From a virus: a DNA stretch of 27,380 nucleotides. The DNA is taken from positions 1 through 27,380 of IMG/VR virus record IMGVR_UViG_3300042476_000210; one strand, 5' to 3'. The notes beneath the pieces are model-generated. The model made no database searches. It was not told the DNA's origin and worked only from the letters and a program-made list of their open reading frames with translations. Position numbers and translations under genes: made by a program. Shown one piece after another: positions 649 through 23,563 of this stretch (its first letter is position 1; each line of letters opens with the position of its first letter).

Positions 649-3600
649 TTATGAATCTTCAGATATTCTATCTACTCTGAGAGTGGCATTACTACAGAAT
701 ATAGTATTTATGTCTACTCCCAGATAATTGTTAGCGAAAGTGAATTGATCGACCGTTAGATATGTATTTGGTAGCAGTCTGCCGTCAGGAAGTTCTTCCA
801 CAAGAACGTCGCAGCGAATTCTTGGGTCTGAAATATCGCATGTCAACCATAGCGGCCAAGCAGTATTGGCGTTTGTATCATATACTAGGTCTATCTCGCT
901 TTGGACCACAAATGGCTGCAATTCATACTTACCGAATAGTTCTGTACCAGCAGGGTGGAAAGTTGAATAGAAAACTTCTTTGTAGTTTTCAATACTGATA
1001 GCAGCTCTAATTTCATAAGAATAATCTTGATAATAATAACTGTCTTGAATGACCTTATCGGAGTTTAATAGTCCATCAGTTGTTGCCCAATAACCAACAC
1101 CCTTACCAACACCAGCCTTTCTGACAATACCTCTAATTTCACTGGCTGTATCGAAAGGAATGAAGTTTGTGGTCAACACTGCGCCATAGGCTCTGCTGTT
1201 TGCAGATCTAATAGAAATTTCTGGAATAGTGTTATATCCAGATCCACTATACCAAGCTCCAAGCTGTGTGTTAACAGCTGTAATGTGACCTTGGTTGTTG
1301 GTTATGACTGAACCTCTGGCTGGATATTCGGTAAACCCTCCAGTAAAGATTAAAGTATCATTGTTTACGTAACCAAAACCGCCTTTAACAACAACAGGAA
1401 CTTCTAAAATACCATATCTGTAAGCATGAACAGATTCGCCCTCTACGTAAGCTCTACCAGAAGAAACGGCAGCAACCTTCTCTACGATATTATTACCGCT
1501 AGAGTTAAGAGCAAGAATATTATCATTAATGCCATTAATCGTATTATCCAATCTTCTCATGATGCTTGCATAAGCGCCATAATTATTTGGATTATTGTTA
1601 TACGAAAGTAGGCTAAACTGATCGATCAAACCAGTATTACTATTTCTTGCTGTGACTTCTGAATTAGCAAACTGAGAAGGCATGATAACAACCGCTCTAC
1701 CGTATACCATAGAATTAGTAGAAGTATTGTTAGTGAACCCATAAAGTTGAACAGATGTATCGCTTTTGATTTCTCTAATAACAGCCAATTCTAAAGTGTT
1801 TGCATCAGCCTCATCAGACTGCAGATAGATAACATCATTGTTCGCAAAATATTTGTTGAATTTGGCGCCTTTGATTTGATGAGAAGCAGCAGCACTAGAA
1901 GAAGATGTGTATATCTGTATAGTAGCACCACCGGCAGTATTACTTAAAGTGATAGCGCTGGAATTTACAGTTTTAACAAAATAAACAGAATTTGCTGTTA
2001 GATTTGCAAGCGCCGAAGATCCTGTAGGAACATCATAGAATATAGAATCACCAGCTTGCAAATATATGTCAGCATTGGCCAATAGGATAGAATAATTTGA
2101 ATTATTTACAGAAGTTGTATTAGAATAAAAATCTTCTGAATAAGCGTTGACATAGGGAACTTGAGCTCTGGTGGTATCATTCAATAGATAATGAGTTTCT
2201 GCCGCCGCCCCGTAGTTACCAGAAAATACCTCAATAGGATCTCCGCCTACTGACATAGAAAGAGTTAACGCAGAATCGTTAGAAGATTCCACATAATAAT
2301 AAGTGTTTCCTTTCAGACCAGTAATTGCAACATTTCCTGTTGGAACATAATAATACACATAATCGTCAACAAAGAAGTATGTATTGGCATTAGAAACTAA
2401 TATAGAATGACTTACGTTGTTGATATAAGAAGCGTTTGCCAAAAAGCTCTTTGTAAGAGCTTTTGTAGTGAAAACGTGTTTCACTACATTACTAGAAACA
2501 TTAGTTGTGCTGATCGCTAATGTTGCTCCACCAGGAGTTTCGCTAAGAGTAATTCCTGACGTGTTTGTAGTTTTTACATAATATCTTGTGTTAGATTGCA
2601 ATCCAGTAATGGCGCTATAGCCTTCTGGAGCCAAGTAATCTACATAGCTATTCAAATCGAAATGTTTATTAGCATTAGCTATAAGAACAACATTACCATC
2701 TATGAATGAAGTATTTACATATACGCCTGAAGAATAAGCGTTAATAAATGTGTTGGTGTTATAATACCAAAGTTTGCCAGGAAGGTTTTTTGATCTATAA
2801 GTTGATCTAATGAAAACATTAGCAGGGGCAATATAAGCATTACCAGCAAGAACGTTTGTTAGATAGGCGATTTTACCGAATACGCCGCTCTCGTATGTAA
2901 ACGTGTCTTCGATATTCGTACTTAAATTGGCGCTGGCATTTCCCAAAAATCCATATGAAGTTTCATTAATAGGTAAGTCAATAAAATCCTGGATCCAGTC
3001 TGTGTTGTATGTCAATCTTCTGGTGTCAGAAAGTTTGATGTTAAAGCTCGCTCCGCTACCAGTTTGATCGGCAATGTTTTTGTATAAAAATATTGCTGAA
3101 TTGGCTAGGAACCCAAACCCGCCATTAACGATGTTGAAGTTAAGAGAACCATATCCACGAAAAAGGGATTTAACGATAACAAGACCTTCAATACCAAAAG
3201 AATCAATTTCGTTGGTATCTGGATCTTTGTATGCAATTTTAAGAATATCTCCGACGTTGAATGAATTACCGCTGTTGAAAACATCAAGAGTATCTAATGA
3301 TCCTAGGATGACTGGCGATGCACCAATTACTGCAGAATCTGTTCTGTATCTGTAGTCAACAATTCTTTCACCAACGTCGAAATCGCCGCCTTTAGGCTCA
3401 ACGCTGGTAATGTACGCCATATAAACTATGTCTTTATTAACACGTTCCCTAACAACCTTCTCAACAACAGCTGTTGTCTTTGAAGAAACGCCCATAATGG
3501 ATTTACCAATAAGAGATTCTAGATTCTCTGTGTATGTTACTTCTAGATATCGTGGATCAACCCATTTACCGTCTGATACTCTCAGTACGTCTTTACCAGG

Positions 3601-16764: not shown

Positions 16765-17673
16765 TTAGTCGTTAGCTAGTTTCTTAAAGAACTTAATTGT
16801 CTCATCTTCATCTTCATCATCACCAGAATACTTCGGCGCATGAGTTGCCTTGAATGATGGAGCAGTTGATTCCTCAGCATCATCCCATGGAACTTCAGTA
16901 TTTTCTGCCTTAGCACGCTTGGCCGGAGCAGAGTCTTCAGCAAGAACCTTTGCTAGTCGAGCACGTAGTTCTTCTTCTGACTTGAAGTTAGATGGAGCAA
17001 GGAATTCCTGAAGCGAATGCTCGCTCTTCCAAACCTTTTCTAGCTCTTCATCGTCCTTTAGTAGTGGACCTGGCTTATCAAACTCTGACTTATCATAATT
17101 ACGATAACCTTCAAGATTACGAATCTTTAGCTTGAATGAAGCGCCAGCCCACATATCGAATGGATTGATTGCTTCCTCGTCAGCAAACTGTGGTTCCATT
17201 GCTTCCTTCAGCTTGTCGAAAATCTTCTTTCCGTACTTGTAAAGGAAAACTTTACCTTCGTTTGCAGGATTACCCTGATCGCTGACAACGTAGATATTGC
17301 TGATGAAGTGAAGACGACGCTTCTGCTTACGAGCAATTTCCTTATTGGCTTCAATACCAGAGTTCCATAGCTTAGAGTTATACTCTGAAACTGGATCGTT
17401 CTTACCAATAGTTGTCAGGGAGTTTTCAATATACCAACCACCTGGACCCTGGAAACCATGATCGAAGATACGAACGAAAGGAACGTCTTCATTCTGCGGC
17501 GGAGGAAGGAAACGAATAACAGCATAACCATTACCAGCCTTATCGACTGTTGGCGACCAGAAACGATCGTCGGAACCTTTTCCTTCGCCGCCTGATAGCT
17601 TATTGAGTTCTGATGTTAGGGATTCGAGAGACTTCTTACCTGAAGCTGCTTTGAGGGACTTAAAATCTACCAT
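16765..17673 (-). CDS. gp32: Single-stranded DNA-binding protein gp32
   Basis: 302 residues from the ATG at 17673 (T4 gp32 is 301). GGAG lies 7 bases before this ATG; the longer frame starting at 17733 adds 20 unlike residues and is rejected. The core (RFWSPTVDKAGNGYAVIRFL, residues 86-130 and NEGKVFLYKYGKKIFDKL) is the OB-fold of T4-type gp32. The C-terminus is acidic (residues 284-292) as needed for partner binding, and ends KFFKKLAND. There is no cysteine in the whole protein, so the zinc site of T4 gp32 is missing, as I recall also for cyanophage relatives. All 11 Arg codons are CGN. It coats ssDNA during replication and recombination and works with the adjacent gp59. Confidence 0.95.
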   Translation of the reverse strand: MVDFKSLKAASGKKSLESLTSELNKLSGGEGKGSDDRFWSPTVDKAGNGYAVIRFLPPPQNEDVPFVRIFDHGFQGPGGWYIENSLTTIGKNDPVSEYNSKLWNSGIEANKEIARKQKRRLHFISNIYVVSDQGNPANEGKVFLYKYGKKIFDKLKEAMEPQFADEEAINPFDMWAGASFKLKIRNLEGYRNYDKSEFDKPGPLLKDDEELEKVWKSEHSLQEFLAPSNFKSEEELRARLAKVLAEDSAPAKRAKAENTEVPWDDAEESTAPSFKATHAPKYSGDDEDEDETIKFFKKLAND

Positions 17674-17733
17674 GTATAATCTCCGTATTACAGTGTATAA
17701 CAATTGTATGAATGGCATTTGTATCGCCATCAT

Positions 17734-17741: not shown

Positions 17742-17767
17742 TTACTCCATATCGCTCATAATGTCAA
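17739..17767 (-). promoter_or_regulatory. Possible early sigma70-type promoter for gp32
   Basis: On the minus strand TTGACA (17767-17762) is a perfect -35 box, with a 17-base spacer to TAATAT (17744-17739), a 4-of-6 match to -10. It sits in the last codons of gp59. The weak -10 makes this tentative. Confidence 0.4.
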
Positions 17768-18308
17768 GCATTATTTGCTTCACCTTCTCATAATCGCATT
17801 TTATAAATGGAGTATACTTCACAACCTTCAATCGGACGTCATCCCATATCGGGTCATATTCCAGTTTAGAGTCCCACTGTTCTAATGCTTTTGTCATTTT
17901 AACAAAAATACAAAGGGACTCTAAGCTGATCTGGTTACCAAGATATAACCTCAGGGCAGCTGGGTGTTGCTGCCCTTTTGGTTCTTGTAGAATTTTCTTG
18001 AAGTCGTTTTTGAAATTATATGTAAGAGACTGATTACGTTTCTTCCAGTTCTGATAAACTACTTGAGCAGTCTCTGAATATGCGAGATCACGGATCCATA
18101 GTTTTGGATCAACAATAAAATTAGCAATGAGAAACTCGCATACATTTTCAATTTTAGATAATTTCTCAAAGAACACCTTATCCTTACGCTTATCAAACGA
18201 TGCGTGCTTTAATCCGGTTTTTCCGTTGTATTTGATATAGTCGTAATCGGTTTTGGTAAAGTGATTTTTGAGGGCAACGTACTCTTTATATGCTTCGAAC
18301 GCCGACAT
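17742..18308 (-). CDS. gp59: Helicase loader gp59
   Basis: 188 residues (T4 gp59 is 217). The N-terminal part (AFEAYKEYVALKNHF, DYDYIKYNGKTGLKHASFDK, RKDKVFFEKLSKI, and FIVDPKLWIRDL) lines up with the T4 gp59 N-terminus as I recall it, in which the same IKYN and KRRDKYFFQKLS pattern appears. gp59 places the gp41 helicase on gp32-covered forks. A GAGG site precedes the ATG at 18308. Its first 100 bases overlap, in another frame, the end of the SprT-like gene. Adjacent to gp32, as in T4. Confidence 0.88.
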   Translation of the reverse strand: MSAFEAYKEYVALKNHFTKTDYDYIKYNGKTGLKHASFDKRKDKVFFEKLSKIENVCEFLIANFIVDPKLWIRDLAYSETAQVVYQNWKKRNQSLTYNFKNDFKKILQEPKGQQHPAALRLYLGNQISLESLCIFVKMTKALEQWDSKLEYDPIWDDVRLKVVKYTPFIKCDYEKVKQIMLDIMSDME

Positions 18309-18806: not shown

Positions 18807-18814
18807 TATTTATA
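18807..18814 (-). promoter_or_regulatory. T4-type late promoter upstream of the SprT-like gene
   Basis: An exact TATAAATA on the minus strand lies 28 bases before the ATG at 18778 and includes the TAA stop codon of gp33. It would let SprT-gp59-gp32 be transcribed late. Confidence 0.6.
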
Positions 18815-19028
18815 TGGGAAGTCTGGCTCCACGTTTGAGGATATTGAGATTTTCAGCCTCTACTTGGATCTTGGACTTCATAACTGGGTCTTTTTTGATC
18901 CAGTATGCAGCCGTTTCCACTTCCAGGTTGTTTTTCTGACACCAGAAAACGATGGCATCAATATATTCGATGTTCTTTTCTCGACAGAGTTTTTCTACTT
19001 CTTCTACGAAGCCTGAATTTTTAAGCAT
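18810..19028 (-). CDS. gp33: Late-promoter transcription coactivator gp33
   Basis: 72 residues, shorter than T4 gp33 (112) but in the size range of gp33 in other T4-like phages. The sequence EKLCREKNIEYIDAIVFWCQ, then NNLEVETAAYWIKKDP and KSKIQVEAENLNILK is the compact helical core of the gp33 family. gp33 bridges RNA polymerase, the gp55 sigma factor and the sliding clamp at late promoters. The order gp33 ... gp59 - gp32 resembles T4 (59-33-dsbA-32). It starts inside the end of the 60-aa ORF, with AAGGA about 10 bases upstream. The several TATAAATA octamers in the window are its expected targets. Confidence 0.8.
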   Translation of the reverse strand: MLKNSGFVEEVEKLCREKNIEYIDAIVFWCQKNNLEVETAAYWIKKDPVMKSKIQVEAENLNILKRGARLPI

Positions 19029-19671: not shown

Positions 19672-20066
19672 TTAATCGTGATCGTAGTTGGAACGCCTCT
19701 AGTCATACTGTAAAGAGTAGCAGCATTGCTTGGAGAAAGGCGAACGCAGCCGTGAGAAGCGGGTCGACCCAAAGCACCAACATGAGGAGTAGCGTGAATT
19801 GCATAACCACCGCTAAAAAAGATAGAATGAGGCATCGGGGCATTGTCGAACTTCTTTGAGTAGTGCATTAGTTGATAAGAATAAGGATGGAAAGTTCCTG
19901 ATGGTGTTACGTAGCCTCTACGTGCGGTAGAAACTGGCCACTGTTCGATTAACTCTCCATCTTCATAAACTGTCATTGTCTGATTACGTTTAGAAACTAC
20001 CACATCATAATCTGCTAGAGCAGAAGTTGAGAATAGAACTGCTGCAGCAATCAATAGTTTATTCAC
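19668..20066 (-). CDS. Exported L,D-transpeptidase (YkuD family)
   Basis: 132 residues with a GTG start overlapping the TGA of the upstream membrane-protein gene (GTGA). Residues 1-18 form a Sec signal peptide with an ALA cleavage site before DYDVV. The mature 114-residue enzyme is a YkuD domain: H91 and S104-H105-G106-C107-V-R109, where C107 is the nucleophile. Such enzymes make 3-3 peptidoglycan crosslinks or attach proteins to the wall in the periplasm. In a phage it could remodel the host wall during infection, delaying lysis or blocking superinfecting phages; this is inference. It is translated together with a two-TM protein, so an envelope-directed pair is likely. Confidence 0.85.
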   Translation of the reverse strand: MNKLLIAAAVLFSTSALADYDVVVSKRNQTMTVYEDGELIEQWPVSTARRGYVTPSGTFHPYSYQLMHYSKKFDNAPMPHSIFFSGGYAIHATPHVGALGRPASHGCVRLSPSNAATLYSMTRGVPTTITIK

Positions 20067-20401: not shown

Positions 20402-20956
20402 TTATTTTGTGAAAACTAGATTGATCACCATTCTCAATTCATGAGAAGATGGAGGAGTGCTAGCATGCAATAACATAGAATCAAAGGCAATTAACCTATT
20501 TCTCATAGGTTTAATTTTTTGTTTTATTGTCAATTCATGCTTATTTATCGGTTCTTTTTCTTCGAATATTACAGTGCACCCATCGCTGTCATTAACATAA
20601 TATAATAATGACTCTGCGTCAACTTCTTTCGTATGGTCGGCGTGAGGAAGATTGTAAACGCCAACAGGCCAATCAGAATGCCTGTAAATCAGATTAGCCT
20701 TGGCTCTTACTAACTTTTCAGTAGATCTACCAGAGGCTTCGATGATTGGTTGAATTAATGGATAATAACCTGAATTAATATTATCATGTAAAAAGAATAC
20801 ATGAGTAAATTGACTGCAATCTCGAGTCTTATCAGTGGTGTATTGTTTTGAGTGTGTGGTGAAGTCGCTGTAATACCAAGGGAAGTCGCTTCCGGATAAT
20901 GTTTGTTCTAGATCATCGCTAATAGCTTTGTCTAGAAAATTGTCAATAATTTCCAT
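20402..20956 (-). CDS. 2OG-Fe(II) oxygenase, no. 2
   Basis: 184 residues from the ATG at 20956, with CGAGG 6 bases upstream (a GTG one codon earlier is the alternative). The motifs are H105-A-D107 in NLPHADHT, distal H164 in LLHAS and R175, and a jelly-roll core SLLYYVNDSDGCTVIFEEKE. It is clearly related to oxygenase no. 3 at 22970-23563: both have the N-terminal SDFPWYY/NDFPWFY motif and the LxYYxxDSDGxT strand. Substrate unknown. The gene lies 15 bases downstream of tRNA-Arg and should be cotranscribed with it from the promoter at 21058-21086. Confidence 0.78.
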   Translation of the reverse strand: MEIIDNFLDKAISDDLEQTLSGSDFPWYYSDFTTHSKQYTTDKTRDCSQFTHVFFLHDNINSGYYPLIQPIIEASGRSTEKLVRAKANLIYRHSDWPVGVYNLPHADHTKEVDAESLLYYVNDSDGCTVIFEEKEPINKHELTIKQKIKPMRNRLIAFDSMLLHASTPPSSHELRMVINLVFTK

Positions 20957-20971
20957 CACAACCTCGAGAAA

Positions 20972-21048
20972 TGGCGGTCCCCGAAGGATTCGAACCCTCG
21001 ACCCACGGAGTAGAAATCCGTTGCTCTATCCAGCTGAGCTAGGGGACC
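20972..21048 (-). tRNA. trnR-UCU: tRNA-Arg (anticodon UCU)
   Basis: Complete cloverleaf on the minus strand: 7-bp acceptor GGTCCCC/GGGGACC, D-arm GCTC...GAGC, anticodon stem ACGGA/TCCGT with loop TTTCTAC (anticodon TCT), T-arm with GTTCGAATC, discriminator G and encoded CCA. It reads AGA (and AGG) codons, which dominate arginine coding in the virion genes here. It has its own near-consensus promoter. Confidence 0.96.
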
Positions 21049-21086: not shown

Positions 21087-21834
21087 ATGGACATTTCTTT
21101 TCACGCTTTTCGTTTCGACGTAGTAAAGAAAAAGTCTTTCTCCATCCATATATACTGGTACTAGGAGTTAGGCTCTTTTGATTCATCTCTTGATCGCTAA
21201 TTAGATGATTATGTATCTTAACCTTCTTTTCAGTCAATGGAACGAATTGCATAAGAGCTTCGCCCATGGGGATCTTCATCAAATACTGTTCGCCCTGTTT
21301 TGCTTTCTTAAAAGCCATAAACACATTAGTGAACGAAACATCATGAAAAGTAATAGACCCAGGAATAATACGAGCATCGATGTTTTCTAAAGACCATTCA
21401 GTCCCAAAACAAATAAATGGAACACGCTCTTTGGTGGTGATCAGCCAAGGACTAGTCAACTTGAACATATGATAATCTATAAAACCAGGATTAAACATAC
21501 TATCCGGAGGAATCTTTGGCTCTGGGCCAGTCGTATAGTTGTAAGAGAAAGTTTCGTTTCTTACATCAATAGCAAAATCAGCCCAAGACTCTAGAATGAA
21601 TCCACGTTTATATAAGTCCAAGAATCCAATACAAGATCTAACGCTTCTGAAAGAATTATTGTAAATGTTTCCTAACGGATTATATGCATACTCATGACGA
21701 GTCTTAGGAACATTATCCATCCATTCGGGTTTAGCTTTATAAGAATTAACAATTGGCGTTGTCTTATAAACACTAGTATTAGATGTGAAACAATCAACAT
21801 CTAAAACAGAACTTCTATGAAAAAATGAAAACAT
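21073..21834 (-). CDS. Conserved phage protein of unknown function (253 aa)
   Basis: 253 residues from the ATG at 21834, with GGAG 6 bases upstream (the longer frame begins with TTG at 21846 and is less likely). The N-terminus (LDVDCFTSNTSVYKTTPIVN, then KAKPEWMDNVPKT), the segment SCIGFLDLYKRGFILESWAD and the later CFGTEWSLENIDARIIPGSI recall a family of unknown function that recurs in T4-like phages and some bacteria (possibly DUF6065; not certain). It appears cytosolic, with no TM or signal segment. It is the first gene after the tmRNA and carries the tRNA promoter -35 in its 3' end. Confidence 0.6.
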   Translation of the reverse strand: MFSFFHRSSVLDVDCFTSNTSVYKTTPIVNSYKAKPEWMDNVPKTRHEYAYNPLGNIYNNSFRSVRSCIGFLDLYKRGFILESWADFAIDVRNETFSYNYTTGPEPKIPPDSMFNPGFIDYHMFKLTSPWLITTKERVPFICFGTEWSLENIDARIIPGSITFHDVSFTNVFMAFKKAKQGEQYLMKIPMGEALMQFVPLTEKKVKIHNHLISDQEMNQKSLTPSTSIYGWRKTFSLLRRNEKREKKCPFDFS

Positions 21835-21899
21835 AATATACTCCAATTAGAAAATGCAACATGCTTCTGTTTCTAGGTGCAGTTGCCAAACCCAATGGA

Positions 21900-21947
21900 T
21901 TATGCCGCTAGAGCATAAACTCCAAATGATGCATCATTATCGTTTGC
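21900..21947 (-). other. tmRNA proteolysis-tag reading frame
   Basis: From the resume codon GCA at 21947 the frame reads ANDNDASFGVYALAA followed by TAA at 21902-21900. The opening ANDN and ending ALAA are those of bacterial ssrA tags, with LAA as the ClpXP degron. The sequence GTAGAT just before the GCA corresponds to the resume-setting element. The tag is longer than the 10-residue E. coli tag. Confidence 0.95.
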
Positions 21948-22011
21948 ATCTACGTTTCGCCTTTGGTCTCCTTACGACCTTACTGAATCCTGTCGAACCT
22001 GAATCGCCCCC

Positions 22012-22097
22012 ATCAAAGATACATAGTTGCAGGTAAAAGGCAACTGCATAATCGGGTGTGTGTATCCTTTTTCATCCACTTCCGATCTATGTATCCA
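22012..22097 (-). other. Intervening segment removed from pre-tmRNA
   Basis: An 86-base segment joins the CCA end to the mature 5' end of the coding piece. It contains the 9-bp closing helix GATACATAG/CTATGTATC and an internal stem GTTGC/GCAAC. RNase P and tRNA 3'-processing enzymes of the host would be expected to cut at its two ends. Confidence 0.8.
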
Positions 22098-22165
22098 TGG
22101 TGGAGGCGGTGGGAATCGCACCCACGTCCAAGAAACCTATTTTTCGTCTCTCAACGACCTCGGCA
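22098..22165 (-). other. tmRNA acceptor piece (5' end approximate)
   Basis: This part carries the T-arm and the 3' acceptor strand with CCA at 22100-22098. Upstream in the RNA, GCCGA near 22160 can pair with TTGGC in the 3' part of the coding piece, which would hold the two mature pieces together. The T-loop is TGCGATT, with G where most tRNAs have U55. Confidence 0.75.
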
Positions 22166-22172
22166 AACCTAT

Positions 22173-22292
22173 TTATTGTGTTTGTATCTGATTTTCAAAC
22201 TCCTCAATCCAAGGAGCAGTTACTTTATCTTCTTTAATTGCACGGATTTGACGTGCGGTCTCTGAAGAGACATTCGGCGAATTTAGCGTCAT
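22173..22292 (-). CDS. Overlapping alternative-frame ORF (39 aa)
   Basis: An ATG at 22292 opens 39 codons in a frame shifted relative to the lipoprotein gene. The product begins MTLNSPNVSSETARQI and ends in the protein-like segment KEDKVTAPWIEEFENQIQTQ, which extends 61 bases beyond the lipoprotein stop, right up to the tmRNA. AGGG touches the ATG, so initiation would be weak or coupled. Alternatively a frameshift joins it to the lipoprotein. The protein-like composition of the non-overlapping part is the reason to list it. Confidence 0.4.
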   Translation of the reverse strand: MTLNSPNVSSETARQIRAIKEDKVTAPWIEEFENQIQTQ

Positions 22293-22359
22293 CCCTATTA
22301 CAAGCAGACAAACTAAGAAAGGATAACCCCACTAGGGCTAGTACTAGATACTTCTTCAT
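22234..22359 (-). CDS. Small lipoprotein (41 aa)
   Basis: From the ATG at 22359, preceded by GGAGGA at 7 bases, the frame encodes MKKYLVLALVGLSFLSLSAC followed by NRDDAKFAECLFRDRTSNPCN. Lys-Lys, a hydrophobic stretch and the lipobox LSAC (Cys20) make a signal-peptidase II signal; the mature peptide is about 22 residues with two more Cys. The longer frame from 22434 is rejected because its first 25 residues overlap the upstream gene and lack an SD. The start lies inside the 3' end of the 97-aa gene. An o-spanin-type or exclusion lipoprotein is possible, but no i-spanin is evident. Confidence 0.75.
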   Translation of the reverse strand: MKKYLVLALVGLSFLSLSACNRDDAKFAECLFRDRTSNPCN

Positions 22360-22606
22360 TCTTTTCCTCCGGGTTAAAGTCGTGCTTTTCAGTTTCGTGA
22401 ATAGCAACAGAAAACCATTCGTTCGAACCTTCACGCTGATATTGAAGATCCTGCATTGGAACCATTACCATCTGCTTTGTTTCTGGATGAACCATCATCT
22501 TAGGAAACATTACCATACGAATATCAGCAATTGGCTTCTTCTTCTGTAATCCGCCTGTAGGAAAACTAACTCCTGCTGTTGCACCATCTGGTCCAAGAAT
22601 ACTCAT
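22313..22606 (-). CDS. Hypothetical protein (97 aa)
   Basis: 97 residues, not recognised. The sequence is Met- and Pro-rich in the middle (VMFPKMMVHPETKQMVMVPM), followed by a short beta-like segment and an acidic, Ser-rich tail. No membrane segment. Its ATG overlaps the TGA of the exported 121-aa protein gene, and its 3' end contains the SD and start of the lipoprotein gene. The packing supports translation. Confidence 0.55.
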   Translation of the reverse strand: MSILGPDGATAGVSFPTGGLQKKKPIADIRMVMFPKMMVHPETKQMVMVPMQDLQYQREGSNEWFSVAIHETEKHDFNPEEKNEEVSSTSPSGVILS

Positions 22607-22969: not shown

Positions 22970-23563
22970 TCACTTCTCTCTTTCTACAAAGTCAAAATTT
23001 ATGATGGTTCGTTTTTTAAAGTTTACTGGATTGTTACCTGCATGATACCTATAACCATTAAATACCAATCCTGCTCCTTTCTTTGGTACGAACCTATCTG
23101 TTTCTGTTAAGCTGCAAACATCAACTTTATCTGGATCTAATCCTGGATAATATTCTTCCTTAAACAGAATAGTATCACCATCGCTATCTTCCGTATAATA
23201 AACCAACGTTGTGAACGGTATAATCTCCGGAAGATCAATATGTGGCCTATTATACTTTGACAGACAGTGGCCAGGAACAGGAAATGATCTTCTTATTCTA
23301 ATTCTCAGAAAACGAGCACAAGTTATACCAGTCTTTTCTTCTAAGAAATACATTATTGGCTTGAACGAATGGAAATAGTCTGAATTTATACCACGTTCTG
23401 TACTATAAAGTGTATGACAAATTGCAGAAGCTTCTGTTATTCTATCATCCACCAAACTTCCTGGAGATATATCATGAGTATAAAACCAAGGGAAGTCGTT
23501 AGCGTTAATTATTCTCTCGATTTCGTCTTGATAAGAAACTGGAATAATGTCTGATATATACAT
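22970..23563 (-). CDS. 2OG-Fe(II) oxygenase, no. 3
   Basis: 197 residues. Motifs: H108-I-D110 in RPHIDLPE, distal H174 in YRYHAG, and R185 for 2-oxoglutarate, with the core strand TTLVYYTEDSDGDTILFKEE. It is a paralogue of oxygenase no. 2, with the same N-terminal NDFPWFY element and similar spacing. The ATG directly follows the TAA of the 59-aa ORF. Target unknown; phage capsid, tail, tRNA or host proteins are all possible. Confidence 0.78.
   Translation of the reverse strand: MYISDIIPVSYQDEIERIINANDFPWFYTHDISPGSLVDDRITEASAICHTLYSTERGINSDYFHSFKPIMYFLEEKTGITCARFLRIRIRRSFPVPGHCLSKYNRPHIDLPEIIPFTTLVYYTEDSDGDTILFKEEYYPGLDPDKVDVCSLTETDRFVPKKGAGLVFNGYRYHAGNNPVNFKKRTIINFDFVEREK

Follow-up and report, generated by a model that had tools for sequence, protein, structure and literature searches.

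In the present study, we analyzed a stretch of viral DNA of 27,380 nucleotides (IMG/VR record IMGVR_UViG_3300042476_000210, positions 1 to 27,380; hereafter, the window) and found that it carries an intact and complete gene for a circularly permuted, two-piece transfer-messenger RNA (tmRNA) of the alpha type, which is encoded by the phage (Table 1). A preliminary description made from the sequence alone had proposed such a gene, and the programs run on it gave strong matches, not scores near background. ARAGORN placed a permuted tmRNA (tmRNA*) with the tag ANDNDASFGVYALAA at 21809-22190 of the minus strand, a strand that the preliminary description had left unstated. Two Rfam models also matched far above their curated cut-offs: tmRNA_permuted (RF04321) reached 94.4 bits (cut-off, 47; E 2.2e-17) and alpha_tmRNA (RF01849) reached 74.7 bits (cut-off, 50).

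The anatomy of the gene was also as first described. According to ARAGORN, Rfam, and RNA folding, the acceptor half is encoded upstream of the coding half with a spacer between them, and the two end points given initially, the CCA end at 22098 and the start of the coding piece at 22011, were exact. The remaining elements were each located in the sequence: an acceptor stem of 7 bp with G3-U70, a T-arm, an encoded CCA, and a tag of 15 residues. In folding, the acceptor stem had a probability of 0.946 to 1.0 in the precursor and formed again between two separate strands. The pairing previously noted in the intervening segment corresponds to the spacer ends GAUACAUAG and CUAUGUAUC, which form a helix stacked on the acceptor stem and thereby extend this stem in the precursor. 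The tag frame has no start codon, ends with a small hydrophobic degron and the stop codon TAA, and is preceded by UAGAU, which resembles a resume signal. Removal of the spacer is argued for because the spacers of relatives hold whole genes, as described below.

Selection on this structure was assessed in 40 distinct phage tmRNA genes. The coding piece was taken to begin with the initial G of the G-run, a criterion independent of pairing, except that four sequences with insertions (contigs L155, L194, L242, and L243) were chosen by eye with knowledge of the acceptor stem. The acceptor stem was paired in 280 of 280 cells across nine stem types; both partners varied at pairs 4, 5, and 6, and all 40 genes had G3-U70. 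When the 3' strands were shuffled among the sequences in 2000 trials, the paired fraction averaged 81% and reached 88.6% at most, such that no trial attained the observed value; this is not a strict probability because the 40 sequences are related. The T-stem was paired at 95.5% (69.8% after shuffling), and the arms of the 3' hairpin covaried in relatives (5.75 of 6 pairs vs. 4.3 shuffled). The tag frame was open in every gene examined and most tags ended in LAA, while the spacer ranged from 3 to about 520 nt. The retention of all acceptor-stem pairs across nine stem types, together with the invariant G3-U70, indicates selection as a working two-piece RNA, and compensatory double changes at three pairs would be hard to obtain otherwise.

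The gene is also maintained at one locus. We gathered 80 viral contigs with a related gp32 and examined the 34 that had at least 5 kb upstream of this gene. A tmRNA was present in at least 26 of these 34 loci, with both pieces being detected by a profile search in 24 and by Rfam in two more (L181 and L186); L163 and L178 had one piece each. The order tmRNA - (tRNA-Arg) - gp33 - gp59 - gp32 recurs in these relatives. Rather than isolated captures, phage two-piece tmRNAs are thus a lasting trait of a widespread group of T4-like phages, and their structure is kept by compensatory change. A few hundred bases beyond the first coding piece, L174 (5494-6204), L146 (6504-6557), and L155 (2771-2835) have a second, partial coding piece or a 3' remnant; in L174, two tags (SNDNVPYSAMKIAA and ANDNYVPSYVLAA) lie behind one acceptor piece.

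Phage two-piece tmRNAs were published in 2022, in a study that counted 53 two-piece genes, 50 of them aquatic, among 133 distinct phage tmRNA structures (PMC9004378), and the window gene is a further member of this published kind. The SsrA of the Methylophilales phage Melnitz (MZ577097; PMC9004378) is likewise a two-piece, alpha-type tmRNA in a T4-like phage. Since Melnitz has the same gene order, tmRNA - gp33 - gp59 - gp32, the window gene is positionally equivalent to it. The Melnitz tag, ANDNYVPVDYALAA, is similar to that of the window, and a TATAAATA box occupies the same upstream place, whereas the spacer is longer (142 nt vs. 86 nt) and BLAST detected no DNA match between the window tmRNA gene and Melnitz. 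No glutamine riboswitch like that of Melnitz was recognizable in window positions 21400-22600 at E up to 5; this downstream element is described as common, but not defining (PMC9004378).

Permuted tmRNA of alphaproteobacteria (RF01849/RF04321), represented here by plasmid copies from Bosea and Microvirga (L266 and L267), shares with the window the order of its pieces, the G3-U70 acceptor stem, the CCA, the ACAGAA-type 3' loop, and the tag pattern ANDN...AA. However, the alpha model scored 155 and 209 bits for these cellular copies against 75 bits for the window, their tags (ANDNHAAGYAVAA and ANDNVDMGAVRLAA) are unlike that of the window, and the phage late promoter described below is a feature of the window. 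A permuted tmRNA also occurs in the Caulobacter phage CcrRogue (JX100814; L207 1469-1787; 88 bits), a phage of an alphaproteobacterium, but this phage is of a different kind (Dolichocephalovirinae) and its gene lies in a different neighborhood and has no late box. The CcrRogue tmRNA is unannotated in its record and was missed by ARAGORN.

Regarding the origin of the phage gene, a search of 84,980 bacterial and archaeal genomes matched neither the window tag (serine encoded as TCN) nor a 20-nt motif of the coding piece, whereas 28 viral contigs contained the motif. The gene therefore represents a separate, old phage lineage. The capture from the host that was proposed initially is upheld in so far as an ultimately alphaproteobacterial origin of phage tmRNA is likely; a capture from the present host can only be inferred.

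Concerning the timing of expression, the late-promoter consensus of T4-like cyanophages is NATAAATA (PMC2984593), and the window carries a box of this type, AATAAATA, from which transcription is predicted to start at approximately 22164. Of 39 related genes, 31 had a NATAAATA box approximately 80 nt upstream of their CCA end, and a late box was present in 23 of 30 clusters of unlike upstream sequences (no more than 60% alike), where 0.18 was expected. The argument for this promoter is drawn entirely from its conserved position in relatives because the count of ATAAATA in the whole window, 11 against 10.6, equals chance. In the window and its nearest relatives, the box stands without a -35 element. 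The simplest reading is that of a late promoter, which would act alone in the window and in combination with an early one elsewhere; the window tmRNA is probably switched on late in infection. Such timing differs from the published idea of early expression.

We consider it probable that this gene encodes a complete, functional, phage-owned tmRNA, expressed late, that rescues ribosomes using host factors. The observations on which this is based are the anatomy, the selection on structure and tag, the upkeep at one locus in a T4-like group, and the conserved late box. The preliminary description saw no smpB in the window, and a search of 13 records of related phages (46 to 235 kb, several of them fragmentary), Melnitz and the 66-kb contig L125 among them, also found no SmpB, while control genomes were matched; host SmpB is, therefore, the expected partner. 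The host RNA polymerase and a phage late-transcription system of the gp55/gp33 type would transcribe the gene, host tRNA-processing enzymes would excise the spacer, and the two pieces would be held together by acceptor-stem pairing. After charging with alanine by the host alanyl-tRNA synthetase (AlaRS) through G3-U70, the tmRNA would be brought by host SmpB to ribosomes stalled late in infection. Stalled peptides would receive the phage tag ending in ALAA and pass to host proteases, and the freed ribosomes would resume the synthesis of virion proteins.

Several observations weigh against this explanation. No tmRNA piece was found in L136, L165, L177, L179, L185, and the apparent recombinant L127 among the 34 loci examined; in L136 (5098-5926), the gp32 of which is 88% identical, the upstream frame is followed directly by tRNA-Arg. 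The gene is not essential because some relatives lack it. Moreover, about ten relatives, namely, Melnitz and about nine others, add a sigma-70-like -35 box (TTGAC) at sigma-70 spacing from the TATAAATA box of the same promoter, and timing in these relatives may be early plus late. Overlapping early and late promoters have been described in cyanophages (PMC2984593), and the SsrA gene of Melnitz was placed behind an early promoter (PMC9004378).

Among other functions, a decoy or modulator, by which the phage RNA competes with host tmRNA for SmpB, AlaRS, or ribosomes or swaps the host tag, such that tagging is blunted or redirected with no added rescue, appears unlikely. Phage tags differ among themselves and that of the window was not found in the cellular genomes searched, which speaks for this role; nevertheless, the tag frame, the resume-signal region, and the LAA-type end are kept in nearly all relatives examined, and a decoy would need none of them. 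The early tagging and recycling of host proteins in a takeover of the host, as proposed for Melnitz (PMC9004378), is similarly unlikely: the TTGAC-bearing relatives speak for it, but the common element is the late box, which stands alone in the window and in the relatives nearest to it. It is very improbable that the gene is a passenger captured without benefit, or chiefly a recombination target for mobile elements, in spite of the homing endonucleases in or beside the tmRNA, the remnants of second coding pieces, and the relatives without a tmRNA, because compensatory changes occur on both sides of the split stem, also across endonuclease insertions. An assembly artefact joining a host tmRNA to a phage contig has a negligible probability, and no observation favored it. 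It was rejected since the junctions recur in contigs from independent metagenomes, with near-identical copies of the locus in L124 and in the 66-kb contig L125 (99.9% identity to the window where the two overlap), as well as in dozens of related contigs and the isolate Melnitz.

In several relatives, endonuclease genes lie in the spacer or the acceptor piece (Table 1). The spacer of L128 contains an HNH gene of 154 codons, which has a TATAAATA box and a ribosome-binding site of its own; six contigs, each from a separate metagenome, share this allele. The acceptor piece of L155 is split by a GIY-YIG gene, behind which a replacement T-arm and acceptor strand pair with the coding piece. All three proteins tested matched homing endonucleases in PHROGs. 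The acceptor stems flanking the insertions are fully paired (GGGGGTG/CACCTCC, GGGGCTG/CAGCTCC, GGGCCAG/CTGGTCC, GGGCCTG/CAGGTCC, and GGGGATG/CATCTCC), and in L235, L242, and L243 the Rfam models align across the insertion. The similarity between L194 and a relative without the endonuclease, L203, was 89% as far as the acceptor piece and 83% from the start of the coding piece.

Endonuclease genes in tmRNA have been reported for group I introns, and among the intervening sequences of permuted genes, one holds a tRNA and one a repeat (PMC11915505). We found no report of an endonuclease in a permuted tmRNA spacer in the literature searched, the coverage of which was incomplete. On balance, we favor the view that the tmRNA of this phage group is a viral rescue RNA that has long been maintained and is expressed late, and the discarded spacer of which houses homing endonucleases; the window spacer would then be the empty version of the endonuclease site. 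If this is the case, the excision of the spacer at maturation would allow a structural RNA gene to harbor a selfish gene with no need for a self-splicing intron. The relatives that carry endonuclease genes suggest that homing genes can find a niche in a permuted RNA gene. Beyond published phage tmRNAs, the late box, the absence of SmpB in 13 records, and the endonuclease genes in the spacers of relatives are new points from the comparison with relatives. A related HNH gene also lies just upstream of an intact tmRNA, not in the spacer, in L241 (2501-3292), and no tmRNA was seen near the distant HNH relatives in L244-L262.

Table 1. Features of the tmRNA gene, its neighbors in the window, and endonuclease insertions in relatives (window positions unless a contig is named).
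Feature	Location	Strand	Basis or remark
Permuted tmRNA gene including promoter box	21848-22177	minus	
T4-type late promoter box AATAAATA	22170..22177	minus	Position conserved in relatives; overlaps stop codon of upstream frame
Acceptor piece, GCCGAGGTCGTTGAG...GGACGTGGGTGCGATTCCCACCGCCTCCACCA	22098..22164	minus	ARAGORN, Rfam, folding; 5' end inferred from promoter
T-arm	22109-22125	minus	Within acceptor piece
Acceptor 3' strand CGCCTCC	22102-22108	minus	
Encoded CCA	22098-22100	minus	
Spacer, 86 nt, predicted to be removed	22012..22097	minus	Folding
Coding (mRNA-like) piece	21848..22011	minus	ARAGORN, Rfam, folding; 3' end inferred
Acceptor 5' strand GGGGGCG	22005-22011	minus	Opens coding piece
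Tag reading frame GCA...TAA, peptide ANDNDASFGVYALAA	21900..21947	minus	
3' hairpin, alpha-type loop CCUAGAAACAGAA	21856..21886	minus	Rfam alignment
tRNA-Arg (TCT)	20972..21048	minus	ARAGORN, Rfam; often adjoins tmRNA in relatives
gp33-like late-transcription coactivator	18810..19028	minus	Homology; same neighbor in Melnitz
gp59-like helicase loader	17742..18308	minus	Homology
gp32-like single-strand DNA-binding protein	16765..17733	minus	Homology
HNH gene in tmRNA spacer	L128 3959-4743		Same allele in L235-L240; pieces 520 nt apart
Related HNH gene in tmRNA spacer	L194 1154-1925		Spacer 489 nt
Related HNH gene in tmRNA spacer	L242 about 2350-3133		Spacer 514 nt
Related HNH gene in tmRNA spacer	L243 about 1110-1854		Spacer 505 nt
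GIY-YIG gene inside acceptor piece	L155 1604-2545		Interrupts after GCCTC

The window contig is a fragment of a T4-like myovirus, in line with the initial suggestion, on the basis of homologues of gp32, gp59, gp33, and baseplate and tail proteins, including the tail tube. A megablast search of the window matched no phage record, and the sole outcome of a direct DNA search of phage records with the tmRNA gene was a short match to the T-arm in Caulobacter phages. By gp6, the nearest named phages were Stenotrophomonas DLP6, Caulobacter Cr30, Synechococcus phages, and Pelagibacter HTVC008M, at only 34-38% identity; by gp32, they were marine T4-like phages, including Melnitz. The kind of records gives the impression of a mainly freshwater group. 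The contig L127 (1-4860) shares 99% identity with the part of the window below position 19943 but is unrelated beyond it, and represents a recombinant phage or an assembly join.

Upstream of the tmRNA, a small lipoprotein-like reading frame (MKKYLVLALVGLSFLSLSAC...) at 22173-22375 on the minus strand overlaps a second frame ending in ...APWIEEFENQIQTQ, the stop codon of which falls inside the late-promoter box; this pair resembles the overlapping arrangement of lysis (spanin) genes. The proteins encoded at 20402-20959 and 22970-23563 match a PHROG named DNA endonuclease V; for the former, this name is probably misleading because Pfam assigns a 2OG-Fe(II) oxygenase domain instead.
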